DNA of 41,258 nucleotides, from assembly GCA_022641595.1 (NCBI GenBank), contig JALCDN010000007.1, positions 1-41,258 of the forward strand, read 5' to 3'. Shown in pieces: positions 2,592-35,405 of the stretch. The notes beneath the pieces were generated by a model. It ran no database searches. It saw only the letters and a program-made list of their open reading frames with translations, and had not been told where the DNA came from. The position numbers were made by a program, and so were the translations under genes. This DNA comes from Ruminococcus sp. (GTDB taxonomy: Bacteria; Bacillota; Clostridia; Oscillospirales; Ruminococcaceae). Position 1 is the first letter of the stretch. Every line of letters begins with the position of its first letter.

Positions 2592-2600
2592 TGCAAAGGA

Positions 2601-2629: not shown

Positions 2630-2683
2630 AAATTATCTGAAATGTGTTAGAAATAGTCGGTTTGCAAAATGGGAGAAAACAGT

Positions 2684-2902: not shown

Positions 2903-2908
2903 TATATT

Positions 2909-3502: not shown

Positions 3503-3533
3503 AAAATATAGCTGGCGAAGGGAGAATAAGGCA

Positions 3534-7744: not shown

Positions 7745-7967
7745 ATCGTTATGCTTTGACAGAATTTGCTAATTGCGATTTTTCTTAATTCTGCGTCATA
7801 ATTGATATTTTAAGCAGATATTATATTTAATTGATATGACATTTTCTTGCGATTTTTATTTTGTATCAATTGTAACTGAGCTTGCATCAAATTGCCTTTA
7901 AGTAGATGCCCTGAAGCTCAACTATTTGCTGAATGATGGGCGATGCCCTTTATCAAAGGAGTATGCA
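7745..7967 (+). other. Long 5' leader of the polysaccharide operon
   Basis: About 220 untranslated bases separate the promoter from wzm. They contain an 11-base direct repeat TTGCGATTTTT (7773 and 7847), a repeated AATTGATAT (7800 and 7829) and a repeated GATGCCCT (7905-7912 and 7942-7949). A GGGC at 7938-7941 can pair with either copy of GCCC; the downstream pairing forms a tight hairpin 7 bases before the AAAGGAG site. No known riboswitch, T-box or JUMPstart/ops element was recognised. A regulatory leader is plausible but unproven. Confidence 0.4.
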
Positions 7968-8744: not shown

Positions 8745-10030
8745 TGAATCAGGAAGAAATTGCTATTGAAGTCAAAGATATTACTAAAAAATTCAAAATA
8801 TATTACGATAAAGGCAGTCAGCTTAAAGAAAAACTTTTATTCAGAAAACGAAGCAGATACGAGGAACGCCTTGTACTCAAAGGAATAAGCTTCAAAGTGA
8901 AAAAAGGTGAAGCAATAGGACTTATCGGTCATAACGGCTGCGGAAAAAGTACAACACTTAAGCTGCTTACAAAAATTATGTATCCGGACAGCGGTTCTAT
9001 AATAATGAACGGAAGAGTTTCAAGTCTGATAGAACTTGGTGCAGGATTTCATCCTGATATGAGCGGCAGAGAAAATATCTATACAAATGCAGCTATTTTC
9101 GGTCTTACAAAAAAAGAAATCGACTCACGTCTTAATGATATTATATCATTTTCAGAGCTTGAACAGTTCATTGATAACCCTGTAAGGACGTATTCATCTG
9201 GAATGTATATGCGCCTTGCATTTTCTGTTGCTATAAATGTTGATGCAGATATTCTTCTGATTGACGAAATACTTGGTGTCGGTGATGCTAATTTTCAGGC
9301 AAAATGCTTTAATAAACTTCGTGAAATCAAGGCAAATGGCACTACAATCGTTATAGTCTCACATTCACTCGGTCAGATTGAACAGATATGCGAAAGATCT
9401 ATCTGGATTCATGACGGTCTTATAAGAGCAGAGGGAAAACCTAAGGATATTGACCTTGAGTATCTCGAATTTATGGGACAAAAGCTCCAGGAAAATACAG
9501 AAAAAGAACTCGCTGAAAAATCTCAGAACAGTGAAGATAATAATGATTCTGAAAAAGAGGCTGACGATAATAATGCCAGTTCCGATTCAGACGAAGATTC
9601 TAAGCTTAAAAACAGATGGGGAAACGGAAATGCAAGAATTACTTCAATCAGAGCATTTTCCGAAAATGGTATGGAACAGCGTGTTTTTAAAACAGGTGAA
9701 GATATTAAGATCAATGTTGAGTATGCTGTAAAGCAAAAGGTTGATGACGCAGTCTTTGGAATTGGTATATTTAACCTTAATGGTGTTCAATGCTATGGAA
9801 CTAATACACATATTGACAAATTTGATATGTTCAGCCTGGAGAAAAACGGATGTGCTACTGTTGTTCTGAAAAATGTAAGCTTGCTTCCAGGAGAATATAT
9901 AATTGATATTGCTATTGAATCAGGCGACGGTATTCCGATAGACTATTTTAAGGAAGCTTACAGAATAGAGATGATTTCTTCTGTTGGTGACGTTGGAATT
10001 ACAAGAATTGAACATGAATGGCAAATATGA
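8744..10030 (+). CDS. wzt: Polysaccharide ABC exporter ATPase with C-terminal Wzt carbohydrate-binding domain
   Basis: The 428-residue protein powers glycan export with the preceding permease. Residues 1-245 form the nucleotide-binding domain: Walker A GHNGCGKST (62-70), signature YSSGMYMR (150-157), Walker B ILLIDE (170-175) and the switch His in VSHS. Residues 250-289 are an acidic low-complexity linker rich in Glu, Asp, Ser and Asn. Residues 290-428 match the Wzt C-terminal beta-sandwich, starting RWGNGNARIT and containing GIGIFNLNGVQCYGTNT. In the E. coli O9a and Klebsiella O12 systems this domain recognises the capped non-reducing end of the exported chain. TagH-type teichoic-acid exporters lack this domain, so recognition of a specific chain end is expected here. 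The gene starts within the wzm stop. Confidence 0.95.
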   Translation: MNQEEIAIEVKDITKKFKIYYDKGSQLKEKLLFRKRSRYEERLVLKGISFKVKKGEAIGLIGHNGCGKSTTLKLLTKIMYPDSGSIIMNGRVSSLIELGAGFHPDMSGRENIYTNAAIFGLTKKEIDSRLNDIISFSELEQFIDNPVRTYSSGMYMRLAFSVAINVDADILLIDEILGVGDANFQAKCFNKLREIKANGTTIVIVSHSLGQIEQICERSIWIHDGLIRAEGKPKDIDLEYLEFMGQKLQENTEKELAEKSQNSEDNNDSEKEADDNNASSDSDEDSKLKNRWGNGNARITSIRAFSENGMEQRVFKTGEDIKINVEYAVKQKVDDAVFGIGIFNLNGVQCYGTNTHIDKFDMFSLEKNGCATVVLKNVSLLPGEYIIDIAIESGDGIPIDYFKEAYRIEMISSVGDVGITRIEHEWQI

Positions 10031-20699: not shown

Positions 20700-23432
20700 A
20701 TGAAGTTTAAATTAAGTATACCAAAGAAAAACAGCCTATTTTATTCTGCTTTTCCGGCAATTCTAATTGCTGCGTTAATAATAATGACAGTATATAAGAT
20801 AAAAGGCATTTTTCCATTTGGAGATGATTCAGTTGCATATATGGATATGTGGCAGATGAATGTTCCTATTTATTATCATATATATGATTTTCTTCATGGT
20901 GATAAATCACTTTTTTATGACTTCTATTCAGGCTTGGGAATAAATATGTCAGAAAGTGTTGCTATTTGCAGCTTGCTTAGCCCTTTTAACTTGTTATTTT
21001 ATTTTATCAAACGTGATGCCATTATGAATTTTCTTCCGATATATACAATGCTTAAAATTGAATTTTCAGTATTGTTTATGAGTATATTTTTGAAATACAA
21101 ATTCAAAAATACACACTTTTTCTGGATAAATTTAGCTTCATTGGCATATGGCTTCTGTGGAATGAATATGATGTACTGTACCAATAGCCAATGGCTTGAT
21201 ATGGCAGCTTTTCTTCCACTACTTACGATGTCACTTGATTATTCACTGAAGAATAAAAAAGTTGTTCCATATGCTTTAATGATGGCATTTTATTGTATTG
21301 TAAATTCATATATAGCTATGGTTGCTTTAATGTTCATTTTCTTTATTGCATCAGCATATATAATACTTATTATTCCAAAGCGTGATAGGGCTTTGAGCGT
21401 GCTTCATCTTGGCATCGGCACTTTATGCGGAGTCGGAATGTCAGCATTCATTCTTCTTCCTTTTATGAATCAAACTTCTAAAACCGCAAGAGTAGGCGGT
21501 AGCATCATAACCACAATCAAGAATTTGATTTTGTCCTCACCGTCGAAAACAACTGCAAGTGTTAAAATGCAAAAGTACTGGATGATGTGGGCTACTGCTT
21601 TGGCTTTAGCAATTATTATTTATGGTGTAATCGTTAATTGGCGTAAAGCAAGGAAAAATACAGCAGCTATATTGTGCGTTGCATTTGTTACGGCTCAGCT
21701 GTTTTTTGAAAATGTTGATCTGATCTTTCATGGAGGTTCATATGTACTTTTTCCAATGAGATTTGGATTTATTACAGCTTTCGTAATGTGGACAACTGCA
21801 ATAAGTTATGTTAATGATATTTCAGAGCTAAATGAATTTCCTGATGTTTCATCTATATTAAAAAATAAATTCCTACTACAATTCAAAATATTGCTTTTAA
21901 TTATGTGCATAATTCTCATACCAATTTTTTCAATTGCACTCGCAAACCGTTTTTGTGATATTACGTTTGAAAAAAGAACTTCATTTTCTTTAATTATTTT
22001 TTTGATACTCACAGTAACATATTTAATTTTAATAAATAGAAATACTCCAAAATTTTTCAGGGGCTTTATTTGTACTATGCTTTGTGCAGAAGTTGCTGCA
22101 GGTACATATCTTTTTATCGGCAAACCTTATATAGACCCTTTTTTTGGCAGTGGAAGTCCTGATATGAAATTTGCTCAGGAAATTACTGATGCAGCAGATA
22201 CTTTTAAACTTACACCTTCAAAATTTTCAAGAGTCAAGAATGCTGATGCAAGATATACATCTAACTACCCTCTATTAATGAGAAAATCTGCACTTAGCAA
22301 CTGGACTCATAGCGTAGATGAAAAAATTCAGAATGCTTTTAAAAATCTTGGCTATACTACAATATATACAAGGCTTGTTGATACTGGTGGGACTGTATTT
22401 TTTGATTCTTTACTGAATGTTGATGACGTTGTAACTATGTCAAAGTTGCCTGAGAAATCTTATACTTACGTTGATTCGCTTATTTCGCAAAAGCCTGTTG
22501 CAAATACAACTGTCAACCATTACAGGACAAATTATTCTTCAGGCTTTGGCACAGTAATGTCTGATTCTGCATTAAATATTCCTATATCAGATGCTTTTAC
22601 AATGCAAAATGGCTTATTTAATGCAATTGATGGTGATAACAATCTGTTTCACATAATTCAAAGTGGTACTGATATAGATCCGGCTATTATTACTTGCAAA
22701 ACAAGTAATGTACTAAACAGAACTGTTGATTACTCGATAAAGGTTTCTGGTTGCCAAAATCTTTATCTTGCAGGTTGTGCAAGCCTAAAAATTAATATCA
22801 ATGGCAAGAACTTTATGATGCCAAGACAAGGACGCAAAAATTATTATTATCCAACAGGTTTTAATAATGGAATTGTTGATCTTGGAGTTTTTGAAAACGA
22901 AACAGTTAATCTTGTTCTTAAATATACGAATGCAATTGATGAAAATTATCTTAGTATTGCACTTATGGATTACTCAAAGCTTGATAATTTAAATTCAAGC
23001 TATTCCACAAAAATTACTGAGGAACATAAAAATAGCTTTGAGCTTAAAGCAAATGCTTATAATGACTCAAGTGTGCTTGTGCTTCCACTATCATATGATA
23101 AGGGAATTGTCTGTAAGGTAAACGGTAAAACTGCTGAAACTTCAAATGTTGTAGGCTGTCTGACCGCTGTCAGACTAAGACAAGGCGAAAACACTGTTTC
23201 AGTAAAATATGTCCCGACCGGCTTTGTAAATGGACTTATTATTGCTACAATATCAGCTTTGATTCTTGCTACATATAATATCATTCTGCTTAAAAGAAAT
23301 AAAGTTAAGTTCAGCGGCACAGTTGAAACGATAATTTTACAAGGCTATATCAAGCTTTGGACAATTGCTGCTGTCATAATATATTTTGTGCCAATGTTTT
23401 TCCAGTTGTTTGATATGTTCAAAAATAAATAA
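20700..23432 (+). CDS. YfhO-family large membrane protein (GT-C-like)
   Basis: The 910-residue protein fits the YfhO family. The first membrane helix is followed by a loop with an acidic motif (FPFGDDSVAYMDMWQMNVP, about 38-56). Further features are YSGLGINMSES and CGMNMMYCTNSQWLDMAAFLPL, about a dozen membrane segments, and a long extracytoplasmic region (about 480-860). A final helix pair ends near NVILLKRNK and the C terminus. Family members act outside the cytoplasm, in Gram-positives attaching sugars from undecaprenyl phosphate to cell-surface polymers. Genes for CDP-sugar synthesis, GtrA and GtrB follow, so it is the best candidate to attach the special sugar. AGGGAG precedes the ATG. 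The exact acceptor is unknown. Confidence 0.85.
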   Translation: MKFKLSIPKKNSLFYSAFPAILIAALIIMTVYKIKGIFPFGDDSVAYMDMWQMNVPIYYHIYDFLHGDKSLFYDFYSGLGINMSESVAICSLLSPFNLLFYFIKRDAIMNFLPIYTMLKIEFSVLFMSIFLKYKFKNTHFFWINLASLAYGFCGMNMMYCTNSQWLDMAAFLPLLTMSLDYSLKNKKVVPYALMMAFYCIVNSYIAMVALMFIFFIASAYIILIIPKRDRALSVLHLGIGTLCGVGMSAFILLPFMNQTSKTARVGGSIITTIKNLILSSPSKTTASVKMQKYWMMWATALALAIIIYGVIVNWRKARKNTAAILCVAFVTAQLFFENVDLIFHGGSYVLFPMRFGFITAFVMWTTAISYVNDISELNEFPDVSSILKNKFLLQFKILLLIMCIILIPIFSIALANRFCDITFEKRTSFSLIIFLILTVTYLILINRNTPKFFRGFICTMLCAEVAAGTYLFIGKPYIDPFFGSGSPDMKFAQEITDAADTFKLTPSKFSRVKNADARYTSNYPLLMRKSALSNWTHSVDEKIQNAFKNLGYTTIYTRLVDTGGTVFFDSLLNVDDVVTMSKLPEKSYTYVDSLISQKPVANTTVNHYRTNYSSGFGTVMSDSALNIPISDAFTMQNGLFNAIDGDNNLFHIIQSGTDIDPAIITCKTSNVLNRTVDYSIKVSGCQNLYLAGCASLKININGKNFMMPRQGRKNYYYPTGFNNGIVDLGVFENETVNLVLKYTNAIDENYLSIALMDYSKLDNLNSSYSTKITEEHKNSFELKANAYNDSSVLVLPLSYDKGIVCKVNGKTAETSNVVGCLTAVRLRQGENTVSVKYVPTGFVNGLIIATISALILATYNIILLKRNKVKFSGTVETIILQGYIKLWTIAAVIIYFVPMFFQLFDMFKNK

Positions 23433-23474
23433 ACATTTGCTTTGTGGTAAAGCAGACCTGAAAGGAATTTGATT

Positions 23475-24248
23475 ATGAAAGTAGTGATCCTTGCAGGAGG
23501 TTTTGGAACAAGAATCTCTGAAGAAAGTCAATTCAAGCCGAAGCCTATGGTCGAAATAGGCGAAATGCCGATACTTTGGCACATTATGAAACTTTATTCA
23601 CATTATGGCTACAATGAATTCGTAATTTGCCTTGGATACAAAGCACACGTTATAAAGGAATTTTTTGCAGATTATTTTCTCTATAATTCTGATATAACAT
23701 TTAATCTTGCCGAAAATAAGATGATAGTGCATAATAATTCTGCTGAACCGTGGATTGTAACGCTTATAGATACAGGTCTTAATACTATGACAGGCGGACG
23801 TATTAAAAGAATAAAGAAATATGTTGGAAATCAGCCATTTTTTCTTACATATGGCGATGGAGTGTCAGATGTCAATATAGACAGTCTCCTCGAATTTCAT
23901 AAGAAAAGCGGCAAAATAGCAACAATGACTGCCATAAAACCTGAAGGCAGATTCGGTGTTCTTGATATAGATGATGACTATATCCATGCTTTCCGTGAAA
24001 AAAGCAAAAATGACAGCGGTTGGATAAACGGTGGTTTTATGGTGCTTCAGCCTCAGATATTTGACTATATCAAGGGCGGAGATGAAGTTGTCTTTGAAAA
24101 AGCTCCACTTGAAACACTCGCAGAAACTAATCAGCTTGTTGCATATAAGCATGACGGATTCTGGCAGTGTATGGATACTCAGCGTGACAAGCAGTATCTC
24201 GAATCACTTTGGGCAGACGGCACTGCACCTTGGAAAGTGTGGGATTAA
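23475..24248 (+). CDS. rfbF: Glucose-1-phosphate cytidylyltransferase
   Basis: The 257-residue enzyme makes CDP-glucose from CTP and glucose-1-phosphate, the first step to all CDP-6-deoxy and 3,6-dideoxy sugars. It starts MKVVILAGGFGTRISEES, the nucleotide-binding loop, followed by FKPKPMVEIGEMPILWHIMK, which is typical of RfbF/DdhA. Metal-binding Asp is in LTYGDGVSDV, with EGRFGVLDID, WINGGFMVLQP and DGFWQCMDTQRDKQYLESL further on. Length and motifs are complete. The ATG at 23475 is preceded by AAAGGA; an in-frame TTG at 23469 is less likely. The stop overlaps the next start by one base, so it is tightly coupled to RfbG. Confidence 0.96.
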   Translation: MKVVILAGGFGTRISEESQFKPKPMVEIGEMPILWHIMKLYSHYGYNEFVICLGYKAHVIKEFFADYFLYNSDITFNLAENKMIVHNNSAEPWIVTLIDTGLNTMTGGRIKRIKKYVGNQPFFLTYGDGVSDVNIDSLLEFHKKSGKIATMTAIKPEGRFGVLDIDDDYIHAFREKSKNDSGWINGGFMVLQPQIFDYIKGGDEVVFEKAPLETLAETNQLVAYKHDGFWQCMDTQRDKQYLESLWADGTAPWKVWD

Positions 24249-25312
24249 TGAATTTCGATTTAAGATTTTATAAAGGTAAAAAAGTTTTTGTTACAGGTCA
24301 TACCGGCTTTAAAGGTTCGTGGCTTTGCAAAATTCTTTCAATGGCAGGTGCAGAAGTTACAGGATATTCGCTTGCACCTTCTACTTCTCCGAATTTGTTT
24401 GAATTATCAGGTATTGACGCCGATATAACATCGGTAATAGGCGATATACGCAATCTTGATAATTTGTGGGACGCATTCAGCAAGGCTCAACCGGAAATTG
24501 TATTTCACCTTGCAGCACAGCCTATAGTTAAAGAAAGCTATGAAAGACCTGCTTATACTTATGAAACAAATGTCATGGGAACAGTAAATATACTTGAGTG
24601 CATAAGGAAAAGTAATTGCACTGTTTCTTTTCTTAATGTTACAACTGATAAGGTATATCAGAACAAGGAATGGGAATGGGGATACCGTGAAAATGAACCC
24701 CTGAATGGATTTGACCCGTATTCTAACAGTAAGTCTTGCTCTGAGCTTGTTACTTCATCTTACAAAAATTCATTTTTCTCTGACGGAGCCGTGAGAATTT
24801 CAACTGCAAGGGCAGGCAATGTAATTGGAGGCGGCGATTTCTCAAGAGACCGTATTATACCTGATTGTATAAGAGCTGCTTTAAATAAACAAGTAATCGG
24901 CGTCAGAAATCCTTATTCCGTACGCCCATATCAGTATGTCCTTGAACCACTTTTTGTCTATCTGATGATAGCAGCTGCTCAGTATAATGATGCCTCAAAA
25001 TCAGGAAACTATAATGTCGGACCTGATGACTGTGACTGCGTTACAACTGGTGAGTTGACTGACATTTTCTGCAATAAATGGGGAGATGGTCAGAGTTGGG
25101 AAAATCATTCGGTTGAAGGTCCTCATGAGGCTAATCTTCTTAAACTTGATTGCTCAAAATTGAAAAAAGTATTCGGTTGGAAACCTGTCTGGAATATTGA
25201 TACTGCTATTGAAAAAACAGTGGAGTTTACTAAATCAGGAACGGATATGCGTTCTATATCAAATGTAATGAAATCACAGATTGATGAGTTCGCCACAGGA
25301 TTTGGCAAATAA
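24248..25312 (+). CDS. rfbG: CDP-glucose 4,6-dehydratase
   Basis: The 354-residue short-chain dehydratase converts CDP-glucose to CDP-4-keto-6-deoxyglucose using bound NAD. The Rossmann motif GHTGFKGSW (about 17-25) is specific to this enzyme group. The active site shows TTDKVYQNKEW and the Tyr-x3-Lys catalytic pair in DPYSNSKSCSE. RISTARAGNVIGGGDFSRDRIIPD and VRPYQYVLEPL are also characteristic. The start at 24248 overlaps the RfbF stop; in-frame codons further upstream lie inside rfbF. The product feeds RfbH, encoded next. Confidence 0.96.
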   Translation: MNFDLRFYKGKKVFVTGHTGFKGSWLCKILSMAGAEVTGYSLAPSTSPNLFELSGIDADITSVIGDIRNLDNLWDAFSKAQPEIVFHLAAQPIVKESYERPAYTYETNVMGTVNILECIRKSNCTVSFLNVTTDKVYQNKEWEWGYRENEPLNGFDPYSNSKSCSELVTSSYKNSFFSDGAVRISTARAGNVIGGGDFSRDRIIPDCIRAALNKQVIGVRNPYSVRPYQYVLEPLFVYLMIAAAQYNDASKSGNYNVGPDDCDCVTTGELTDIFCNKWGDGQSWENHSVEGPHEANLLKLDCSKLKKVFGWKPVWNIDTAIEKTVEFTKSGTDMRSISNVMKSQIDEFATGFGK

Positions 25313-25349
25313 TCAGTCATATTTTAATTCTTATGGAGGAAAATTCAAT

Positions 25350-26675
25350 ATGAACGAAAAAGAAGCAAGACAGCAGATACTCGCACTTGCTGCGGATTAC
25401 TGCGATAAATACAAAACGCCAAAAAATGATTTCAAGGAAGGCGACAGAATACCATACGCATCAAGAGTTTTCGATCATAGTGAAATGGTAAATCTTATCG
25501 ACTCGGCTCTTGAATTTTGGCTGACTTCTGGCAGATATACCGAAAAATTTGAATCAGAATTTGCAAAATATCTTGGTGTCAAGTATTGTTCTTTGGTAAA
25601 TTCAGGTTCGTCAGCAAATTTACTTGCTTTTATGACTCTGACATCACCACTTCTCGGCGATAGAAGAGTAAGAAGAGGCGACGAAGTAATCACCGTTGCC
25701 TGTGGTTTTCCAACAACAATTGCTCCAATTATGCAGTATGGAGCAGTTCCGGTTTTTGTTGATGTTACTATACCTCAGTATAATATTGATGCAGATGCAC
25801 TTGAAAGTGCTTATTCAGAAAAAACAAAGGCAGTAATGATTGCGCATACTCTCGGAAATCCGTTTAATCTCGCTGCTGTTAAAGCTTTCTGCGAAAAACA
25901 TAATCTCTGGCTTGTTGAGGATAACTGCGATGCACTTGGTACTGAATATACTTTAAACGGTGAGACAAGGCTTACAGGTACTATTGGTGATATAGGAACA
26001 TCAAGCTTTTATCCGCCACACCATATGACAATGGGTGAAGGCGGTGCTGTTTATACAAACAATTCGCTGCTTAATAAGGTTATACGCTCAATGAGAGATT
26101 GGGGACGTGACTGTGTTTGTCCATCTGGCAGAGACAATCTTTGCGGTCATAGATTCGATGGTCAGTTCGGTGAACTTCCACAAGGCTATGACCATAAATA
26201 TGTTTACTCGCATCTTGGCTTCAACTTGAAAGCTACAGATATGCAGGCAGCAATTGGTGTAGCTCAGTTGGAAAAATTTCCATCATTTGTTGAAAAAAGA
26301 CGTCATAATTTTGACAGACTTCATAAAGCACTTGAGATTGTTTCTGATAAGTTCATTCTTCCACAGGCATGCGAAAATTCAAATCCAAGCTGGTTCGGAT
26401 TTCTTTTGACATGCCGTGATGGTGTTGAAAGAAAAAATGTTGTCAAGTATATTGAAGACCACGGCGTGCAGACAAGAATGCTTTTTGCAGGTAATATAAT
26501 AAAGCACCCATGCTTCGATGAATATCGTGCAAGTGGCGAAGGCTATCGTGTTGCAGGTTCACTCACTAATACTGACAAGATAATGGAAAAAACATTTTGG
26601 GTAGGTGTTTATCCTGGAATGACTGACGAAAAAATCGACTATATGGCTAAAACCATTATTAATTCGGTAAAATAA
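25350..26675 (+). CDS. rfbH: CDP-4-keto-6-deoxy-D-glucose 3-dehydrase (E1, PMP- and [2Fe-2S]-dependent)
   Basis: The 441-residue enzyme has the aminotransferase fold but removes the C3 hydroxyl of CDP-4-keto-6-deoxyglucose. In place of the PLP-binding Lys it has His in SFYPPHHMTMGEGGAV (His224/His225), the hallmark of this dehydrase group. Cys193, Cys255, Cys257 and Cys265 match the Cys spacing of the E1 iron-sulfur cluster, which separates it from cluster-free ColD-type enzymes. TGGAGGA at 25333-25339 fixes the start. The reaction normally needs a flavin/iron-sulfur reductase (E3: RfbI/AscD/DdhD), and none is encoded in this window. It overlaps the GtrA-like gene by one base. Confidence 0.95.
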   Translation: MNEKEARQQILALAADYCDKYKTPKNDFKEGDRIPYASRVFDHSEMVNLIDSALEFWLTSGRYTEKFESEFAKYLGVKYCSLVNSGSSANLLAFMTLTSPLLGDRRVRRGDEVITVACGFPTTIAPIMQYGAVPVFVDVTIPQYNIDADALESAYSEKTKAVMIAHTLGNPFNLAAVKAFCEKHNLWLVEDNCDALGTEYTLNGETRLTGTIGDIGTSSFYPPHHMTMGEGGAVYTNNSLLNKVIRSMRDWGRDCVCPSGRDNLCGHRFDGQFGELPQGYDHKYVYSHLGFNLKATDMQAAIGVAQLEKFPSFVEKRRHNFDRLHKALEIVSDKFILPQACENSNPSWFGFLLTCRDGVERKNVVKYIEDHGVQTRMLFAGNIIKHPCFDEYRASGEGYRVAGSLTNTDKIMEKTFWVGVYPGMTDEKIDYMAKTIINSVK

Positions 26676-27097
26676 TGCATTTGAACAAATTGCTGTCGAA
26701 AAAATATGAAATTGTAAGACAATTTATAAAGTTCGGAATGGTTGGTGTTCTTAATTTTGCAATTTCAACGGGTATATATTATATTTTTATATACTTTGAC
26801 AAAAAGCTATATTTAATCGGATATGTTGTTGGATTCATTGTAAGTGTTCTGAATGCCTATTATTTTAATCATAAATTTGTGTTCAAAACAAAAATGAATT
26901 CAGCAAAAGAGCATATTAAGGCAATTTTAAAGACTTATGCAAGCTATGGATTTACATTTTTACTTAGTATGTTTTTGCTTTGGTTTTTTGTATCCATCTG
27001 CAATATTTCAGAAAAAATTGTTCCGTTTATAAATCTTCTGATTACAACTCCGCTAAATTTTCTTTTCAATAAGTTCTGGTCTTTCAGAAAAAAATAA
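26675..27097 (+). CDS. GtrA-family membrane protein
   Basis: The 140-residue protein has four membrane segments and the GtrA pattern: an N-terminal basic helix (EIVRQFIKFGMVGVLNFAIS), then VVGFIVSVLNAYYFNHKFVF and finally TTPLNFLFNKFWSFRK. GtrA proteins are proposed to flip undecaprenyl-phosphate-linked sugars in O-antigen glucosylation and wall-glycosylation systems. The partner GtrB-like GT2 is encoded at 29742 and a GT-C candidate at 20700. Its place between RfbH and the YerE-like gene suggests it serves the dideoxy-sugar branch. Confidence 0.9.
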   Translation: MHLNKLLSKKYEIVRQFIKFGMVGVLNFAISTGIYYIFIYFDKKLYLIGYVVGFIVSVLNAYYFNHKFVFKTKMNSAKEHIKAILKTYASYGFTFLLSMFLLWFFVSICNISEKIVPFINLLITTPLNFLFNKFWSFRKK

Positions 27098-27119
27098 ATT
27101 TTGTATAGGTGTGAATTTA

Positions 27120-28829
27120 ATGCTTGTCAGCGATTTTATTGTGGATTTCCTTTCAAAAAATGGCATTGAGCACGCATTTGGTTATCCGGGAGGTATGGTA
27201 ACATATCTTATGGACTCCTTTGCACGTTCAGAGGGTATAAAGGCTCATGTAAACTATCATGAACAAGGAGCCGCATTTGCTGCGTGCGGTTATGCGTCAG
27301 CAAGTGGGAGAACAGGTGTTGCTTATGCAACAAGTGGTCCGGGTGCTACTAACCTTGTTACCGGAATTGCCGAAGCTTATTTTGATTCAGTTCCTGTGCT
27401 TTTTATAACAGGACAAGTTAATACATACGAATCAAAAGGCAGTATGCATTTGCGTCAGAAAGGGTTTCAGGAAACTGATATATTAAGTATTGTTTCACCT
27501 ATAACAAAATTTTCAGCAGCTGTTAATGACGAGAATGATATACTGTATATGCTTGAAAAAGCAATTTATACAGCTAATAATGGCAGAAAAGGGCCTGTAC
27601 TTCTTGATATTCCGATGAATATTCAACGGCAGGACATTGACCATTTGATGCTCAGACATTTTGAAGTCCCAAAGAATAATAAAAGTAATGTTGATTTCAA
27701 TGAGATTTTTAAACTTATAAATAGTTCAAAAAGACCATGCGTAATTGCAGGTGCCGGTATAAAACAAACTGAAACTGTTTCAACATTCAGAAAACTTGTC
27801 GAAATTTTGAAAATTCCTGTGCTGACAAGCATGATTTCAGCAGACTTGTTGCCGTACGGTAATGAGTACTCATTTGGATTTGTAGGTGCATACGGTGACA
27901 GGCAGGCTAATTTCATAATTTCAAAGTCAGACCTTATATTGACAATCGGTTCAAGAATGGACTGTCGTCAGGTCGGTTCAAAGCGTGATAATTTTGCCGT
28001 AAATGCTAAAATTGTCAGACTTGATACTGATATTTGTGAATTTGAAAACAGCATTCATTCAGATGACATAAATGTGAATTTTGACCTTTGCAGTGATTTC
28101 AATGATTTGCTGCATTTTGCAAAATTTTATCAGCTAAATGACTTTTCACAGTGGATATTAGTATGTAAAATAATAAAGGAAAAATTGTCTGATACTGTTG
28201 ATAAGCTTTATCCTGAGGTCATTGTAAGAAAAATAAGTGAATATGTTCCGGATAATGCAACAATTACTACTGATGTCGGACAGAATCAGGTTTGGATATC
28301 ACAGTATTTTAAAATAAAAGAGAGCCAAAGAATACTATTTTCAGGTGGGCATGGGGCTATGGGATTCTCTCTGCCAGCTGCTATAGGAGCTTCACTCTCT
28401 GATACAAAACGACTTACATTGTGCTTTTGCGGTGACGGCGGCTTTATGATGAATATGCAGGAGCTTCAATTTATTGCCCGTGAGCAGCTTCCAATAAAGA
28501 TCTTTGTAATGAATAATCATGCACTTGGTATGATTCGCCATTTTCAGGAAATGTACTTTTCATCAAGATTTGTTCAAACCACAGCTCAAAACGGATATAC
28601 AATACCAAATCTTAATAAGCTTTCTTCAGCTTTCGGACTTAATTACAGGGCAATTACAAATGTATCTGATGTAAGCGAAAATTTATTTTCTGAAGCTTGT
28701 CCTGAACTTATTGAAGTATTTTTACCTGAAACTACTTATGTTTTTCCTAAGCTTGCAATCAACAAACCAATTCAAGATCAGGAACCTCCAATTGACCGCA
28801 AGCTCTACAAAGAGCTTGATCAGCTATAA
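27120..28829 (+). CDS. ThDP-dependent enzyme of the IlvB/YerE type, probable acetyl-branching enzyme for a CDP-sugar
   Basis: The 569-residue protein has all three parts of acetolactate-synthase-like enzymes. The N-terminal domain carries the ThDP-activating Glu48 in NYHEQGAA, and a central FAD-fold-type domain follows (about 195-335). The C-terminal domain has the ThDP motif GDGGFMMN (438-445) to NN (465-466). No small regulatory subunit is encoded nearby, and it overlaps genes for CDP-sugar and membrane glycosylation. In Yersinia, YerE of this family adds a two-carbon unit from pyruvate to C4 of CDP-3,6-dideoxy-4-ketohexose, after DdhA-D (RfbF, G, H, I). The same context here makes a YerE role likely. 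AGGTG at 27107 supports the ATG at 27120; GTG at 27111 is possible. Ordinary acetolactate synthase is the alternative. Confidence 0.8.
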   Translation: MLVSDFIVDFLSKNGIEHAFGYPGGMVTYLMDSFARSEGIKAHVNYHEQGAAFAACGYASASGRTGVAYATSGPGATNLVTGIAEAYFDSVPVLFITGQVNTYESKGSMHLRQKGFQETDILSIVSPITKFSAAVNDENDILYMLEKAIYTANNGRKGPVLLDIPMNIQRQDIDHLMLRHFEVPKNNKSNVDFNEIFKLINSSKRPCVIAGAGIKQTETVSTFRKLVEILKIPVLTSMISADLLPYGNEYSFGFVGAYGDRQANFIISKSDLILTIGSRMDCRQVGSKRDNFAVNAKIVRLDTDICEFENSIHSDDINVNFDLCSDFNDLLHFAKFYQLNDFSQWILVCKIIKEKLSDTVDKLYPEVIVRKISEYVPDNATITTDVGQNQVWISQYFKIKESQRILFSGGHGAMGFSLPAAIGASLSDTKRLTLCFCGDGGFMMNMQELQFIAREQLPIKIFVMNNHALGMIRHFQEMYFSSRFVQTTAQNGYTIPNLNKLSSAFGLNYRAITNVSDVSENLFSEACPELIEVFLPETTYVFPKLAINKPIQDQEPPIDRKLYKELDQL

Positions 28830-29755
28830 TGCGTGCTGTTGTAACAGGTGCTTCGGGTTTTCTCGGTGTTAGCCTGATTGAACGACTTCTTGAAAACGGA
28901 AATGAAGTGCTCGCTGTTATACGCCCAAATTCTTTGAATTTGTCACGAATTCCGAAATACAATGTACTTTCGGTTGTGCAAATTGATGCTAATGATATAT
29001 CTGAGCTTTGCTTGAACGTTAAAAATCAATATGATACATTTTTTCACCTTGCATGGAGCGGAATCAGAGGTAACGACAGAAATGATGCTGATCTGCAAAG
29101 CAAAAATTATTTCAATTCGGTCGCTGCTGTTGAAACTGCATTTAAAATTGGCTGCAAAACATTTGTGTCAACGGGTTCACAAGCTGAATGCGGTATAAAA
29201 AATGAAGTTATCGATGAAAATACTTCATTGGAACCAGTATGTGAGTATGGCAAGTCTAAAGTAAGATGTTTGAATTTTGAACGTGAATATTGCTACACTC
29301 ATAATATGAAATTTGTTTGGGCAAGAATTTTTAGTCTTTACGGTAAATATGATTACTCTAAAAGCCTGATTAATTACGCAATCGACTCAATGCTTCAGAA
29401 CAAACAGGTTAATTTTTCACCATGTACTCAGATGTGGGACTATCTTAATGTTAGCGACGCATCAAGAGCAATTTTGCTTGCCGCAGAGAGTGAGATAAAT
29501 GACATAGTAAATATTGCTGATGGAAATTTCAAGCCTTTAAAAGACTTTATATATGAAATTTCAGATATAACAAAGTCAAATTCAAAGCTCGTTTTTGCTG
29601 ACGCTTTATCATGGAAAACTCCACTTGTAAATCTATGTCCAGATGTTTCTTATTTGAAAAAACGTACAGGTTTTAATGCAAATGTGAGCTTTAGAAACGG
29701 TATTGAAGAACTTATTGCCTTAAAGGTGAAAGGTAAGAATAATGAAAAAAATTAG
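28829..29755 (+). CDS. NAD(P)-dependent SDR (epimerase/reductase), YerF-like candidate
   Basis: The 308-residue extended SDR shows the Rossmann motif GASGFLG (7-13), FFHLAWSG, STGSQAECG and the catalytic Tyr-x3-Lys in CEYGKSKV. MWDYLNVSDASRAI is the conserved region before the substrate-binding end. Its start overlaps the YerE-like stop by one base. After YerE, a reductase (YerF in Yersinia) reduces the added acetyl group to give CDP-yersiniose; this gene is in the right place for that step. It could instead be a 4-ketoreductase such as abequose synthase (RfbJ-like), in which case the YerE-like enzyme would have another job. SDR identity is firm; the exact reaction is inferred. Confidence 0.85.
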   Translation: MRAVVTGASGFLGVSLIERLLENGNEVLAVIRPNSLNLSRIPKYNVLSVVQIDANDISELCLNVKNQYDTFFHLAWSGIRGNDRNDADLQSKNYFNSVAAVETAFKIGCKTFVSTGSQAECGIKNEVIDENTSLEPVCEYGKSKVRCLNFEREYCYTHNMKFVWARIFSLYGKYDYSKSLINYAIDSMLQNKQVNFSPCTQMWDYLNVSDASRAILLAAESEINDIVNIADGNFKPLKDFIYEISDITKSNSKLVFADALSWKTPLVNLCPDVSYLKKRTGFNANVSFRNGIEELIALKVKGKNNEKN

Positions 29756-30683
29756 TGTTGTTATACCTACATACAACGAACAGGAAAATGTTAAGCCGCT
29801 AAGCGAAGCGATTGTTGCTGTATTTAATGACAAGCTCCCACAATATGATTATGAAATTATCTTTATTGATAACTTCTCAAAGGATAAGACAAGACCGCTT
29901 ATCAGGGAAATTTGTGCCAATAATTCTAAAATAAAGGCAATATTCAACAGCAAAAATTTTGGGCAGTTTAATTCTCCGTATTATGGACTATGCCAAAGTA
30001 CCGGAGACTGTACAATACTTATCTGTGCAGATTTTCAGGATCCTGTTGAGCTTATTCCTACATTTGTGAAAGAATGGGAAAATGGCTATAAAATCGTCTG
30101 TGGAATAAAAACCACAAGCCGTGAAAATAAATTAATGCGCTCTGTAAGAACTTTTTACTACAAGCTCATAAATAAGCTTTCATCAGTTGAGCAGATAGAA
30201 CACTTTACCGGTTTTGGACTTTACGATAAGTCGTTTATAAAAGTTTTAAGTGAACTCAAAGACCCAACACCATTTCTTAGAGGCATTGTTGCAGAACTTG
30301 GACCGGAGCGAAAAGAAATTCCATATGAACAGCAAAAACGTCGTGCCGGCAAAACAAAAAATAACTGGTATTCACTTTATGATGCGGCAATGCTAAGCTT
30401 CACATCGTATACCAAAATTGGACTTCGTCTTGCTACATTCCTTGGATTCGGTTGTGCAGCAATTAGCTTTCTTATAGGTCTTATTTATCTCATACTTAAA
30501 TTCATTTACTGGGACAGATTTGTTGCAGGGATGACACCAATGCTTATAGGTATGTTTTTCCTTGGGTCATTGCAATTGTTTTTCATCGGCTTTGTAGGCG
30601 AATATATAATGAGTATCAACACAAGGGTTATCAACCGTCCTCTTGTAATTGAAGACGAACGAATTAACTTTACTGAAACTTAA
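29742..30683 (+). CDS. GT2 polyprenyl-phosphate glycosyltransferase (GtrB-like)
   Basis: The 313-residue protein has a GT-A domain (VVIPTYNEQENV, IIFIDNFSKDKT, metal-binding CADFQDP, then HFTGFGLYDKSF) and two C-terminal membrane helices at about 228-252 and 262-290. This is the GtrB/DPM1 layout. It would load a sugar, perhaps the CDP-linked branched sugar made by the preceding genes, onto undecaprenyl phosphate for flipping by the GtrA-like protein. It overlaps the SDR gene by 14 bases and is the last gene before a strong terminator. It is only distantly like the GT2 encoded at 17672, so the two probably use different sugars. Confidence 0.9.
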   Translation: MKKISVVIPTYNEQENVKPLSEAIVAVFNDKLPQYDYEIIFIDNFSKDKTRPLIREICANNSKIKAIFNSKNFGQFNSPYYGLCQSTGDCTILICADFQDPVELIPTFVKEWENGYKIVCGIKTTSRENKLMRSVRTFYYKLINKLSSVEQIEHFTGFGLYDKSFIKVLSELKDPTPFLRGIVAELGPERKEIPYEQQKRRAGKTKNNWYSLYDAAMLSFTSYTKIGLRLATFLGFGCAAISFLIGLIYLILKFIYWDRFVAGMTPMLIGMFFLGSLQLFFIGFVGEYIMSINTRVINRPLVIEDERINFTET

Positions 30684-30708: not shown

Positions 30709-30743
30709 ATCCGGACATTTTTGAAGTATGTCCGGATTTTTTT
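30709..30743 (+). terminator. Intrinsic terminator ending the ABC-type polysaccharide operon
   Basis: A perfect 10-bp stem (ATCCGGACAT at 30709-30718 and its complement at 30728-30737) has a 9-nt loop and runs directly into seven T residues. It lies 26 bases after the GtrB-like stop and is the strongest terminator in the window. Confidence 0.92.
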
Positions 30744-30924: not shown

Positions 30925-31045
30925 TATGTGATGCTAATATAGTTGACTGCATTATGAGAATGATTATATTAAACTATGCCTATGTTACGATCATTATATT
31001 AAATGGCAACTGCTTATGTCAAAATATCGAAGGGAAATACTTTAT
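30925..31045 (+). other. 5' leader of the Wzy-type capsule operon
   Basis: About 120 untranslated bases precede the fused CpsCD gene. They contain an exact 11-base direct repeat ATTATATTAAA (30963-30973 and 30993-31003), spaced 30 bases start to start, about three helical turns. Such spacing could suit a DNA-binding dimer, but no known motif is recognised. AAGGGAAA at 31030 serves as the ribosome site. Confidence 0.35.
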
Positions 31046-32590
31046 ATGAGCAAAAAATATACAATAAAAGATCTGATATTTCTTTTACTGAATAAACTTC
31101 TTTTTTTAATATGTGCATTAATAATAGGTGCAGGATCGACATTTTCTGTTTCAAAATTTTTCATAGCACCTAAATACCAGTCAAATGTTTCGCTTTATGT
31201 TAAAAACAACAATGATGATTCAACAGCTAAAAAAACGCAGGGTGTTGATGTTAATGATTTGACTGTTTCAAAATCACTTGTTAGTACATATATAGTAATA
31301 CTTAACAGTGACACTGTAATGGATAAAATTAGTGAGAAACTCCTCAAAGTGTATTCTGAAGATGAACTTAAAAGTTATTTTCAGTTTAAAGACGGTCAGA
31401 TAACTAATCAAAGCCTTAAAGAGTGCTTTACTATGGCAGCGGTTAATCAAACTGAGGTGCTTAATATTGTCGCTACTACGAAAAATCCTGAGCTTTCACA
31501 AAAGCTTTGCAATATAATGGCAGATGTCGCCCCAAATTTCCTTATACGAGTGGTTGGTGCTGGCTCAGTAGAAAAAATTGGCGAAGCAAAATTATATGAC
31601 AGCCAAGTTTCACCTAATGTGACCAAAAATACAGCTTTAGGTGCAATAGCCGGTCTATTGATTGCTATTCTTATCGTATTTATTATAGATTTCTTTGACA
31701 ATTCCATAAAGGATACAAGTGAACTTCAGGAACGTTTAAATAAGCCTATTCTCGGTGAAATCTCTCATATTGGCGGAAAAACCAAGAAAAAAGATATTGG
31801 AAAATCAAGCGACAGAAGGCAAAAGCTTATTAACAATAATAATAATATTCCTTTTAATATAATTGAAAACTATAAATCTATGCGTACAAATGTTATGTTT
31901 TCACTTTCGACAGCAGAAAATAAAATTCTTGCCGTGACAAGTTCTTTGCCATCAGAAGGCAAGTCGGTTACGGTAGCCAATCTTGCTGTAACTATGGCTG
32001 AGGCTGATAAGAAAATACTTCTTATTGATGGAGATATGCGCAAACCTGTTCAACATAAGAACTTTAAACTGCAAAACAAAAAAGGTCTTTCAACAATTCT
32101 TTCAGGCGAAAATATATTTGAAAAATGTGTAAACCGTAATGCAGCTAAAAATCTTGACGTTTTGACTTCAGGAGTTGTTCCACCAAATCCATCTGAGTTA
32201 CTTGCTTCAAAAAATATGCACAGCCTTATTGATAAAATTAAATCGCAATATGATTATATACTTATTGATACGCCGCCAATTCTTCAAATGACTGATGTCA
32301 TTGGCATTTCAGATATAATTGCTGGTGTTGCTGTTGTTGTTTCATATGGCAAAACTAATTATTACGAGATTCAAGAGGTTCAGAAAAAACTTGAACTTGG
32401 CAATTGCAATCTTACCGGCTTTATTTTAAATAACATAACAATCGGCAGCAGTAGCAGCTATGGCTATAGGTATAGCTACAAATATGGATATAAGTATGGA
32501 TATAAATATAAATACTATTCTCAGAACTATAAATATGAACAGGCAAAAGAGGATAATGATAATATCAAAGAATCGGGTGATACCAAATAA
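31046..32590 (+). CDS. Fused polysaccharide co-polymerase and tyrosine autokinase (CpsC-CpsD/Wzc-like)
   Basis: The 514-residue protein regulates chain length and assembly of a Wzy-dependent glycan. Membrane helices at about 13-33 and 195-215 flank an extracytoplasmic Wzz-like domain. The cytoplasmic BY-kinase part runs from about 265. It shows Walker A SLPSEGKSVT (300-309), Walker A' LLIDGDMRKP (325-334) and Walker B YILIDTPP (404-411). The RSMR-type contact region is KSMRTNVMF. The tail at 472-497 has 13 Tyr residues, mostly alternating with Gly, Lys, Arg or Ser, as autophosphorylation site cluster. Gram-positive systems often split CpsC and CpsD; here they are one chain. An in-frame ATG at 31016 exists, but AAGGGAAA favours 31046. 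It overlaps the phosphatase gene by one base. Confidence 0.94.
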   Translation: MSKKYTIKDLIFLLLNKLLFLICALIIGAGSTFSVSKFFIAPKYQSNVSLYVKNNNDDSTAKKTQGVDVNDLTVSKSLVSTYIVILNSDTVMDKISEKLLKVYSEDELKSYFQFKDGQITNQSLKECFTMAAVNQTEVLNIVATTKNPELSQKLCNIMADVAPNFLIRVVGAGSVEKIGEAKLYDSQVSPNVTKNTALGAIAGLLIAILIVFIIDFFDNSIKDTSELQERLNKPILGEISHIGGKTKKKDIGKSSDRRQKLINNNNNIPFNIIENYKSMRTNVMFSLSTAENKILAVTSSLPSEGKSVTVANLAVTMAEADKKILLIDGDMRKPVQHKNFKLQNKKGLSTILSGENIFEKCVNRNAAKNLDVLTSGVVPPNPSELLASKNMHSLIDKIKSQYDYILIDTPPILQMTDVIGISDIIAGVAVVVSYGKTNYYEIQEVQKKLELGNCNLTGFILNNITIGSSSSYGYRYSYKYGYKYGYKYKYYSQNYKYEQAKEDNDNIKESGDTK

Positions 32591-33276
32591 TGAGCTCACT
32601 TACTGACATTCACTCTCATATTCTTCCATTTATGGACGATGGAGCGGATTCTGTCGAAATGTCCATTCATATGCTCGAAATTATGAAGGAACAGGGTGTT
32701 GAAAGAGTAGTAGCTACTCCACATTTTTATCCTCATAAGGAGAAAAATGTAAAATCATTTTTGGAAAAACGCCAAAATTCTTACGAAAAATTAATGTCTT
32801 CTGATCCTCCAATTTCTGACATATTGTTAGGTGCAGAAGTTTCAGTTGAAAAAGATATTTCCGATCTGGAAAATATTAATTTGCTTGCAATACAAAATAC
32901 AGACCTTTTTCTTTTTGAATTGCAGTATAAATCATTTTCTGATTGGATGCTCGAAGAAATAGATAATATTTCTACAGCCTATAAGTTGACTTCAGTTATC
33001 GCTCACATACATAGATATATTCCTTTTTACACAAAGCCAGACTTTGAAAAGGTTTTGCAGTCAGATTCTGTGTTTCAAGTGAATGCTGAGGCTTTTGGCA
33101 ATTTTAGAGAATCTCATTTTGTCAAAAAGCTTATTAAAAATGATTTTCCATTGGCTTTTGGAAGTGATTCTCATAATCTCTCTGATCGTAAACCAAATTG
33201 GAGTTTGCTAAAAAAGAAATTAAACCAAAGCGAAATTGATAAGGCTATGGCACTATTTGAAAGTCATTTGAAGTAA
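32590..33276 (+). CDS. cpsB: CpsB/YwqE-type PHP-domain tyrosine phosphatase
   Basis: The 228-residue metal-dependent phosphatase should remove phosphate from the Tyr tail of the preceding autokinase, closing the regulatory cycle of capsule synthesis. The PHP-family metal ligands are visible: DIHSHILP (6-13), ATPHFYPH (42-49), GAEV (81-84), IAHIHRY and FGSDSHN near the end. Length is normal. The start sits within the stop of the kinase gene, so the pair is translationally coupled. A 190-base gap follows before the next gene. Confidence 0.94.
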   Translation: MSSLTDIHSHILPFMDDGADSVEMSIHMLEIMKEQGVERVVATPHFYPHKEKNVKSFLEKRQNSYEKLMSSDPPISDILLGAEVSVEKDISDLENINLLAIQNTDLFLFELQYKSFSDWMLEEIDNISTAYKLTSVIAHIHRYIPFYTKPDFEKVLQSDSVFQVNAEAFGNFRESHFVKKLIKNDFPLAFGSDSHNLSDRKPNWSLLKKKLNQSEIDKAMALFESHLK

Positions 33277-33466
33277 CTTATTACAAAACAATAATTTGAT
33301 TTTTAATCAGAAATTTCAAACTAAATTAAAGCCTCAAAGAAAATGAAACAGAGATCGCTTAAAAAGTCCTACTCATTTTTTGGAAACAAATACAGTAAAT
33401 TGCGGTGAAGTTGAGGTTTGTTCGGCGTTCATCGCTACAATGATAAATACTATTTGGAGGACGTAT
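33277..33466 (+). other. Gap between the phosphatase and aminotransferase genes
   Basis: No gene is seen in these 190 bases. The first half is AT-rich. A weak promoter-like pair, TTGAGG (33411) and TACAAT (33436), has a 19-base spacer. No terminator is evident. Base composition changes at about 33390, where the more GC-rich aminotransferase segment begins. Confidence 0.35.
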
Positions 33467-34711
33467 ATGAAAATACCTTTTAGCCCACCTGACATTACAC
33501 AGGCAGAAATTGATGAAGTAGTAGACGCACTTGAATCAGGATGGATAACAACAGGTCCAAAGGTGAAACAGCTTGAGGAACAGGTGGCGAAACGCTGTGG
33601 AACATCTAAGGCTGTCTGTCTTAATTCCAACACAGCTTGTTCTGAGATGACTCTCAGAATTCTTGGCGTGGGTCCCGGCGATGAAGTTATCGTTCCTGCC
33701 TATACATATACGGCAAGCGCTTCTGTAGTTGATCATGTTGGTGCAAAACTTGTCTTAATCGATTGCGAACATGGAAAATTCACAATGAACTATGATAAGT
33801 TAGAAAATGCTATAACTGAGAGAACGAAAGTCATCATTCCAGTTGATCTGTTTGGTATTCCGTGTGATTATGACTGCATCTTTGATATAGTAGAGCGAAA
33901 GAAACATCTTTTTCACCCTTCAAATGATATTCAGGCTGCTTTTGGTCGTGTTATCGTCATGGCTGACGCTGCTCATGCTTTCGGTGCTACTTGGCACGGT
34001 GAAACAGTTGGCTCTATTGCAGACTTCACTAATTTCAGTTTTCATGCAGTCAAAAATCTAACCACAGCCGAGGGTGGTGCTGTAACCTGGAGAGATATCC
34101 CAAGCGTGGATAACTGTGAGTTATATAAGCTGTATCAGTTGCACTCTCTACATGGTCAAAGCAAGGATGCTCTTGCCAAGATGAAACTCGGTTCTTGGGA
34201 ATATGATATCGTTGATTTGTGGTACAAGTGTAATATGACTGATGTTCATGCAGCAATTGGATTGGCTCAGAGCAGAAGATACGATGAGATGTTGGCAAGG
34301 AGAAAGCAGATCATATATCGTTATAATGAAGAACTGTCTGGTTTAGGCATCACTCCTGTAGTTCACTTTACCGATGAATATAGTTCTTCCGGTCATCTTT
34401 ATATTACCAGATTGGACGGTTGTACGGCTGAACAGAGAAACGAGTTCATCAAGGCTATGGCAGAAATGGGTGTAGCGACTAATGTCCACTACAAGCCTCT
34501 GCCAATGCACACAGGATATCAAAAGCTTGGGTTTAAGATTGATAATTTCCCGGAAGCATATAAAATGTTTGAAAATGAGGTCACATTACCTTTGCATACT
34601 TGTCTGACAGATGAGCAGGTGGAATATGTGATTGAGTGTGCGAAGAAAGCGATAGTAAAAGCAAAGAAAGCGTTGGATTTAAATGAAATTAAACTCAAAA
34701 CAGTGGTATAA
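33467..34711 (+). CDS. DegT/DnrJ/EryC1/StrS-family sugar aminotransferase
   Basis: The 414-residue PLP enzyme transfers an amino group, normally from glutamate, to a nucleotide-linked ketosugar. The PLP-binding Lys196 is present in SFHAVKNLTTAEGGAV, together with the cofactor-stacking region MADAAHAFGA and the substrate-entry motif IPFSPPDIT...ESGWITTGPKV. This contrasts with RfbH in this window, where the Lys is His. The product is probably a 4-amino-4,6-dideoxy or similar UDP-sugar used by the initiating transferase encoded next. TTGGAGGA at 33454-33461 sets the start; an in-frame ATG at 33380 lacks support. GC content is clearly higher than in flanking genes. It overlaps the next gene by 29 bases. 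Confidence 0.93.
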   Translation: MKIPFSPPDITQAEIDEVVDALESGWITTGPKVKQLEEQVAKRCGTSKAVCLNSNTACSEMTLRILGVGPGDEVIVPAYTYTASASVVDHVGAKLVLIDCEHGKFTMNYDKLENAITERTKVIIPVDLFGIPCDYDCIFDIVERKKHLFHPSNDIQAAFGRVIVMADAAHAFGATWHGETVGSIADFTNFSFHAVKNLTTAEGGAVTWRDIPSVDNCELYKLYQLHSLHGQSKDALAKMKLGSWEYDIVDLWYKCNMTDVHAAIGLAQSRRYDEMLARRKQIIYRYNEELSGLGITPVVHFTDEYSSSGHLYITRLDGCTAEQRNEFIKAMAEMGVATNVHYKPLPMHTGYQKLGFKIDNFPEAYKMFENEVTLPLHTCLTDEQVEYVIECAKKAIVKAKKALDLNEIKLKTVV

Positions 34712-35405
34712 GCTTCCTGAGTGGGATGATCTTCCGAAGTTCATGAGAAACGATGAGATTAAGCTGTATTATAATGTTTTGAAGAAGAGAAAAGTTTCAT
34801 TATACCTAAAACGTGCGTTTGATTTCTCTGTTGCTGCGGTGATGCTTACTGTGTTATCTATTCCTATGGCTGTTATTGCAGTTGGTATCAAGCTGGATAC
34901 ACCTGGTCCTGTGTTTTATAAGCAGGAGCGAATAACAACATATGGTAGGAAGTTCCGCATTCACAAGTTCCGCACAATGGTCGACAATGCTGAGAAGCTC
35001 GGCACCAGTGTTACGGTTAACAATGACAAGCGTATCACCAAAATGGGGCAGCGGCTCAGAGATTTAAGGTTGGACGAGCTTCCGCAGCTTATAGATGTGT
35101 TGCAAGGTAATATGAGCTTCGTTGGCACAAGACCTGAGGCTGTTAAGTATGTGAAACAGTACACATCTGAGATGTTTGCTACTCTCCTGCTACCGGCTGG
35201 CATTACAAGTGAGGCTTGCATCCGGTACAAGGAAGAGTATAAGCTTCTTGATGCGGCAGATGATGTTGACAAGGTTTATGTTGAAGAAGTACTTCCAGCT
35301 AAGATGGTGTGGAATTTGGAATCTGTGAGAAGGTTTAGATTCTTACGAGAAATATTGACGATGTTCAGAACTGTATTTGCTGTTCTGGGCAAGGATTACA
35401 ACTAA
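34683..35405 (+). CDS. Initiating sugar transferase (monotopic phosphoglycosyl transferase)
   Basis: The 240-residue protein transfers a sugar-1-phosphate to undecaprenyl phosphate, the first committed step of capsule repeat synthesis. A short N-terminal cytoplasmic part is followed by one re-entrant membrane helix (about 47-70, with a Pro near its end). The catalytic domain has DTPGPVFYKQERI, KFRIHKFRTMVDNAE, the catalytic Asp131-Glu132 in LRLDELPQLIDVL and MSFVGTRPE. It is slightly longer than minimal PglC-type enzymes and lacks the multi-helix WbaP N terminus. The ATG at 34683 lies inside the aminotransferase gene, and both share the same higher GC content, suggesting they were acquired together. 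Confidence 0.95.
   Translation: MKLNSKQWYKLPEWDDLPKFMRNDEIKLYYNVLKKRKVSLYLKRAFDFSVAAVMLTVLSIPMAVIAVGIKLDTPGPVFYKQERITTYGRKFRIHKFRTMVDNAEKLGTSVTVNNDKRITKMGQRLRDLRLDELPQLIDVLQGNMSFVGTRPEAVKYVKQYTSEMFATLLLPAGITSEACIRYKEEYKLLDAADDVDKVYVEEVLPAKMVWNLESVRRFRFLREILTMFRTVFAVLGKDYN

Follow-up and report, generated by a model that had tools for sequence, protein, structure and literature searches.

A YerE-like enzyme in a gene unit predicted to make and display a branched 3,6-dideoxy sugar in Ruminococcus sp.

Which sugar might a dense run of eight genes in a Ruminococcus contig make, and where might it go? The genes lie at 20700-30683 of a 41,258-nt stretch of Ruminococcus sp. contig JALCDN010000007.1, which as a whole we call the window. 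They are all intact and on the + strand, in the order YfhO, RfbF, RfbG, RfbH, GtrA, a thiamine diphosphate (ThDP) enzyme, a short-chain dehydrogenase/reductase (SDR) and GtrB. The gene set for a rare branched 3,6-dideoxy sugar looks complete, with a product that is probably put on the cell surface. We think it likely that the unit makes a C4-branched 3,6-dideoxyhexose through a YerE-like ThDP enzyme and the SDR, and displays it through GtrB, GtrA and YfhO.

Does the ThDP gene (27111..28829, + strand, starting at GTG 27111 or ATG 27120) encode a sugar-branching enzyme or an acetolactate synthase? Its best match by sequence in the PDB is 5ahk (367 bits), and the best acetohydroxyacid synthases (AHAS), from plant and E. 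coli, score 316 bits and lower. The 5ahk entry was deposited as acetohydroxy acid synthase Pf5 of Pseudomonas protegens; we take it very probably to be PpYerE, because residue 479, after subtraction of a 20-residue tag, is the Val of LGMVR, matching V479, where PpYerE variants are placed (PMC12247030). The window enzyme and 5ahk have in common an LGM-x-R-x-FQEMYF motif and an insertion, the core of which, [RK]Q-x-[GA]-FQE, is present in 85 of 93 rows on the YerE side and absent from all 33 comparison rows. Of the YerE-side rows, 8 lack it; these are second copies, 7 of them in the JanthE-type group. One comparison row (L035) has a different insertion, and the tree places it with the YerE side. 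In that tree of 107 rows, 13 AHAS rows split from the 94 others, which include the window enzyme and 5ahk, with a support of 100 by the Shimodaira-Hasegawa-like approximate likelihood ratio test; C15, the other ThDP enzyme of the genome, is among the 13. The window enzyme has a Bacillota clade of its own, a set of 38 rows with a support of 99, each of which is either titled as Bacillota or comes from the order to which the window belongs. A profile built from 12 YerE-like proteins gives 5ahk 629 bits, versus 487 for the best AHAS. Our AlphaFold model of the enzyme has a predicted local distance difference test score of 90.4, and a fold search ranks JanthE chains first to sixth (8rph is JanthE; PMC12188165) and 5ahk seventh and eighth, with AHAS after them; the identity in this search is about 35% to 5ahk and 29% to JanthE. 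The catalytic Glu of HEQ (E51 from the GTG start, E48 from the ATG), GDG at 441-443 and NN at 468-469 are all kept. A plasmid search found 1624 records; among the 40 listed, identity is no higher than 36.7%, and the annotation is acetolactate synthase or none. Judged by sequence and model, the enzyme is YerE-like and not an acetolactate synthase. The earlier note on this DNA had held that a grouping with true acetolactate synthases would refute its reading; in our tree the enzyme falls with YerE-like proteins instead, and this refutation did not occur.

The genes around it belong to families of 3,6-dideoxyhexose synthesis and sugar transfer. RfbF (glucose-1-phosphate cytidylyltransferase; 23475..24248, +) scores 411 bits against TIGR02623, with a cut-off of 300, and RfbG (CDP-glucose 4,6-dehydratase; 24248..25312, +) scores 429 bits against TIGR02622, with a cut-off of 278; the frame of RfbG is open from 24209, and its start codon, the ATG at 24248, shares a nucleotide with the stop codon of RfbF. 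RfbH (CDP-4-keto-6-deoxyglucose 3-dehydrase, E1 type; 25350..26675, +) reaches 721 bits against NF011936, with a cut-off of 423. Compared with the E1 of Yersinia (3bcx, 513 bits), it has His at the H220 position in place of Lys and keeps the four [2Fe-2S] Cys at a spacing of C-X61-C-X-C-X7-C, so the marks of an E1-type 3-dehydrase (His for Lys, four Cys, a score above the curated cut-off) are all present. The SDR (28829..29755, +; PF01370, 108 bits), a proposed ketoreductase of the branch, carries YxxxK as YGKSK and overlaps the ThDP gene by 1 nt. The earlier note had named RfbF, RfbG, an RfbH with this His and Cys set, a ThDP enzyme with intact Glu48 and GDG...NN, and an SDR, in overlapping genes, and all of the genes named are confirmed. 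We further find GtrA (26675..27097, +; PF04138, 71 bits), a small membrane protein that probably flips a polyprenyl-phosphate sugar; its gene separates RfbH from the ThDP gene. A family 2 glycosyltransferase of the GtrB/CsbB/PgfS type (29742..30683, +; PF00535), a proposed undecaprenyl-phosphate sugar synthase, ends the unit at 30683; its best NCBIfam match, PgfS, gives 180 bits, below the cut-off of 500. The YfhO-family GT-C membrane glycosyltransferase (20700..23432, +; Pfam YfhO, 292 bits) ends 42 nt before RfbF. From RfbF to GtrB the gaps are -1, 37, -1, 13, -1 and -14 nt (RfbG and RfbH both starting with ATG, at 24248 and 25350), and all gaps of the unit thus lie between -14 and 42 nt. 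An intrinsic-terminator-like hairpin with a perfect 10-bp stem and a T-run, read from the sequence at 30709..30743 (+), closes it; the terminator scanner, with a loop limit of 8, has no entry for this hairpin, whose loop is 9. YfhO to GtrB is probably one transcription unit.

Is such a unit a single oddity? Among 35 other genomes of the genus, the best match of the ThDP enzyme is 302 bits, and among all 59 other genomes of that search it is 321 bits; relatives at least 45% identical to it score at least 486 bits, by blastp, a program other than that of the genus search. In a sample of the order, 5 of 394 genomes match at E <= 1e-98, its own included. Two of these (G072 and G344) carry the cassette, with ThDP identities of 54% and 50%; in G102 the match stands beside a gene that is aldolase-like by eye, and that in G135 is an AHAS. 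In the phylum sample, 4 of 398 genomes match at E <= 1e-105, again with its own: G577 and G704 have YerE-like genes with Rfb genes, and G696 has an AHAS-like one. A scan of named genomes confirmed at least 526 relatives, the first 32 rows being all Bacillota by title, and the carriers by name include Clostridium puniceum, Pseudobutyrivibrio, Holdemania, Blautia schinkii and Oscillibacter. We analysed the neighbours of the best 80 of these relatives, counting an Rfb gene at 40% identity or more over 150, 200 or 90 residues for RfbF, RfbG and RfbH, respectively. At least one of the three is nearby in 66 of the 80, RfbH in 63 and all three in 40. One locus (L037) matches all seven genes from RfbF to GtrB, order included, at a GC content of 63%, compared with 33-39% GC in the window, which marks the cassette as old or mobile. 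The setting, which the earlier note had called unexpected, is indeed rare within the order, where 2 of the 393 other genomes have it, but recurs across Bacillota; it is a Bacillota clade. We met no description of such Bacillota cassettes in the open-licence PMC literature, the part that we searched. Krug 2024 predicts more than 200 YerE-like enzymes (as cited in PMC12247030), and that set may already list some from Bacillota. Some relatives stand in other surroundings: in L051, L054, L056 and L059, YerE-like genes 51-52% identical to the window's have no Rfb genes on the stretches examined, with a CobW-type gene upstream in L059 and Wzc-like genes after the YerE-like gene in L056 and L059. At L047:232-8407, a YerE-side ThDP gene lies between genes that are aldolase-like and dehydrogenase-like by eye, and downstream of RmlA/RmlB-like genes; this is a different pathway.

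The unit recalls the CDP-yersiniose pathway of Yersinia pseudotuberculosis (DdhA-D, YerE and the reductase YerF), with which it shares the RfbF, RfbG and RfbH families, a YerE-like ThDP enzyme and a predicted reductase, here the SDR. It differs in that no E3 was found, in its Gram-positive host and in its tie to GtrA, GtrB and YfhO. For the role of YerE in the known pathway we rely on PMC12247030. We infer every reaction in this organism, together with donor, stereochemistry, electron donor and acceptor glycan, as follows. RfbF would make CDP-glucose, which RfbG would convert to CDP-4-keto-6-deoxyglucose, and RfbH, with pyridoxamine 5'-phosphate and [2Fe-2S], would take off the C3 hydroxyl to give CDP-4-keto-3,6-dideoxyglucose; its electrons may come from a general ferredoxin or flavodoxin system. 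The YerE-like enzyme would then decarboxylate a 2-oxoacid, pyruvate being the simplest, and join the acyl unit to the C4 ketone, leaving a tertiary alcohol, and the SDR would reduce the new side-chain ketone. The GtrB-type enzyme would transfer the sugar from CDP to undecaprenyl phosphate, GtrA would flip the undecaprenyl-phosphate sugar, and YfhO, a GT-C protein, would pass it to a surface glycan.

Several observations weigh against this reading. By sequence, AHAS (316 bits) outscores JanthE (8rph, 259 bits) for the window enzyme; the 12-member profile gives JanthE 448 bits, under the 487 of the best AHAS; and in the tree, which was taken without JanthE, the branch of 5ahk is long (1.68). Moreover, our thresholds pick up no Rfb gene in 14 of the 80 loci with a YerE-like gene, 7 of these on stretches shorter than 12 kb; since three loci (L059, L092 and L101) have none on stretches longer than 20 kb, the YerE-like family also occurs apart from RfbFGH. 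The SDR family is found in cassettes that have no ThDP gene (L167 and L171), and E3 was not found in the assembly, where 0 proteins match PF00175 (81% complete; no E3 positive control). It might be argued that an ordinary acetolactate synthase gene has come to lie in a glycan cluster by chance, and acetolactate synthase is indeed the name that the top NCBIfam matches bear. We rejected this identity as extremely improbable: among the 25 best models shown, none reaches its cut-off (TIGR00118, 434 versus 538; PRK08978, 437 versus 738), the enzyme belongs to a clade split from AHAS and has the insertion motif, C15, which groups with AHAS, is encoded elsewhere in the genome, and the linkage to RfbFGH is conserved. 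The electron supply is another matter. In Yersinia, the E1 electrons are supplied by E3 (PMC8987622), and the assay suggested in the earlier note presupposed one. A dedicated E3 could lie in the missing part of the assembly, the pathway then being a plain copy of the Gram-negative one, and both the completeness of 81% and the missing positive control favour this. Yet a motif scan of open reading frames of 251-419 aa, again with no E3 positive control, gave no candidate near any of 84 loci. PF00175 is found in 10 of 12 carrier genomes, with 21 matches (the frames of two, L144 and L146, read in part), and the plant-type Fer2 motif occurs in two, both from Flavobacterium, at the C-terminus; as far as read (one genome in part), no PF00175 frame of 10 Bacillota cassette genomes has that motif, and in Arcobacter caeni and G072 nothing matches PF00175. 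We therefore hold a hidden E3 to be quite improbable. The sole Fer2 match in the assembly is a frame that resembles an [FeFe]-hydrogenase, named by eye. Because no E3 was found, we propose that RfbH may draw on general ferredoxin or flavodoxin electrons by analogy with SpnQ, a homologous E1-type enzyme that works with ferredoxin or flavodoxin pairs (PMC8987622). SpnQ, of spinosyn synthesis, acts on a dTDP sugar, and we liken the two by description only.

The nature of the branch and the role of the SDR leave more room for alternatives. Since the donor is not readable from sequence and YerE-like enzymes accept C2 to C8 2-oxoacids (PMC12247030), yersiniose is one candidate product among branched sugars. 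A longer or hydroxylated side chain, made from donors of the erwiniose or JanthE type, would fit this range, the report that ErwE does not use pyruvate (PMC12247030) and the JanthE-type gene in tandem with a PpYerE type in a sister cassette (L065); we regard it as possible but doubtful, as a family search shows no aldolase among the eight genes from YfhO to GtrB and 5ahk is a closer sequence match to the window enzyme than JanthE is. Alternatively, the SDR could be a C4 ketoreductase for an unbranched 3,6-dideoxyhexose of the abequose or paratose type, and the cluster could yield two CDP-sugars. This agrees with L167 and L171, where related SDRs directly follow RfbH, and such cassettes make the step given to the SDR here a tentative one. 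In our SDR tree (54 rows above 75 bits), loci with and without ThDP genes are not cleanly split. However, the window SDR is in a set of 10 rows, 8 of them from loci with YerE and RfbH, its gene overlaps the ThDP gene, and in L178, which has the JanthE type, and L168, which has the split transketolase, an SDR also stands directly 3' of the ThDP gene. That an SDR comes next to each branching enzyme suggests a role in side-chain reduction, and we consider the two-sugar alternative unlikely.

What lies between RfbH and the SDR varies from cassette to cassette. This slot holds a YerE-like gene in the window, L037 and L038; a second type of ThDP gene in L169, L178 and L177 (the last with a further gap of 2.6 kb after RfbH); both types in L065; a split transketolase in L168; and nothing in L167 and L171. 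The second type is JanthE-like in L065 (8rph 395 bits versus 5ahk 259), and it shares 67% identity with the copy in L178, a locus that keeps the gene order of the window, with a JanthE-type gene where the window has its YerE-like one. In L168 (6855-8655; genome G255), the pair consists of a Transketolase_N protein and a Transket_pyr/Transketolase_C protein, which together take up exactly the YerE slot, the rest of the RfbFGH-SDR-GtrA-GtrB cassette being a match. According to PMC12247030, the 13 transketolases that Krug 2024 puts forward as putative branching enzymes all come from Streptomycetes. The branching enzyme of the cassette thus seems swappable. Mixed arrangements occur as well: the interval from RfbG to RfbH in Arcobacter caeni (L080:10001-16517) contains both a YerE-like gene and split transketolase-like genes, and PpYerE-type and JanthE-type genes stand in tandem or nearby in L065:10001-13621 and in L055, L069, L070, L073 and L074. 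At L072:9837-10031, between GtrA and the SDR, a short stretch matches only part of the JanthE-type gene; it has the look of a relic of that type, and a YerE-like gene of full length stands beside it.

Does the GtrB gene belong to this chemistry or is it a general transferase? In the 394-genome order sample, 14 genomes besides the window's own have a GtrB that is at least 58% identical, and RfbH is found in 13 of these 14, compared with 14 of the remaining 379 (p = 4e-16 by a Fisher test that ignores relatedness and takes the GtrB and RfbH samples as the same 394 genomes). The cut was chosen after seeing a gap from 58% to 50%; over all 17 other genomes, RfbH is in 13. The sole genome above the cut without RfbH is G410, and the three more without it are at 49-50% identity. 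RfbG is nearby in 11 of the 14 GtrB loci, and L170 (3 kb), L173 and L175 are without RfbG on the stretch examined. From this association, the GtrB clade therefore travels with CDP-3,6-dideoxyhexose genes generally, with or without YerE. Both this linkage and the variability of the slot are new here. The earlier note's idea that GtrA, GtrB and YfhO-like proteins decorate a surface glycan with the sugar thereby gains independent support. At the family level, the family 2 transferase, GtrA and GT-C protein of transmembrane glycosylation are all present, with their activity predicted, and the three fit that scheme; YfhO-family proteins are also in the carrier loci L060, L072 and L076, and L058 has a UPF0182 protein instead. 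The same three families make up the CsbB-GtcA-YfhO system, whose known sugars are Gal, Glc and GlcNAc, not a CDP-linked branched dideoxyhexose (PMC8035078), and three-component systems for pentofuranoses have also been published (PMC11127046). Putting these results together, we tentatively suggest a modular Gram-positive system, in which the RfbFGH backbone would feed CDP-4-keto-3,6-dideoxyglucose, a swappable ThDP slot would set the C4 branch, and a GtrB clade dedicated to CDP-3,6-dideoxyhexoses would load undecaprenyl phosphate.

The rest of the window adds some context. ABC-2/Wzt-type exporter genes (7926-10030) and a set of Wzz/Wzc, CpsB, DegT and sugar-transferase genes (31016-35405) flank the cassette, and glycans may be exported by more than one route. 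At the left end (115-4529), a tyrosine recombinase, a serine recombinase and a RhuM-family gene may make up a mobile element, which would lie about 16 kb to the left of YfhO. The window encodes a GH5-dockerin protein, and the genome has two cohesin matches; these are consistent with the "cellulosomal" host of the earlier note and stop short of proving it, and the host is probably a cellulose-degrading Gram-positive.

YerE-like enzymes outside Gram-negatives have a parallel in MMAR_2332 of Mycobacterium marinum (caryophyllose), from another phylum and likened by description only (PMC12247030), and a 2016 paper sets Gram-negatives, in which C4-branched octoses are made by a single-chain YerE, against Gram-positives (PMC4753412). 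The finding of full RfbFGH cassettes in a clade of Bacillota broadens this picture of a chemistry known chiefly from Gram-negatives, and it predicts unusual surface sugars on the bacteria that bear the cassette. It also offers new enzymes for chiral tertiary alcohols, an apparently E3-free 3-deoxygenation and a possible undecaprenyl-phosphate-linked branched dideoxyhexose. If the modular reading is true, Bacillota would have a family of branched surface sugars made without E3, and sugar branching by split transketolases would extend beyond Streptomyces; the swappable slot would allow the chemistry of the side chain to be predicted from gene content.

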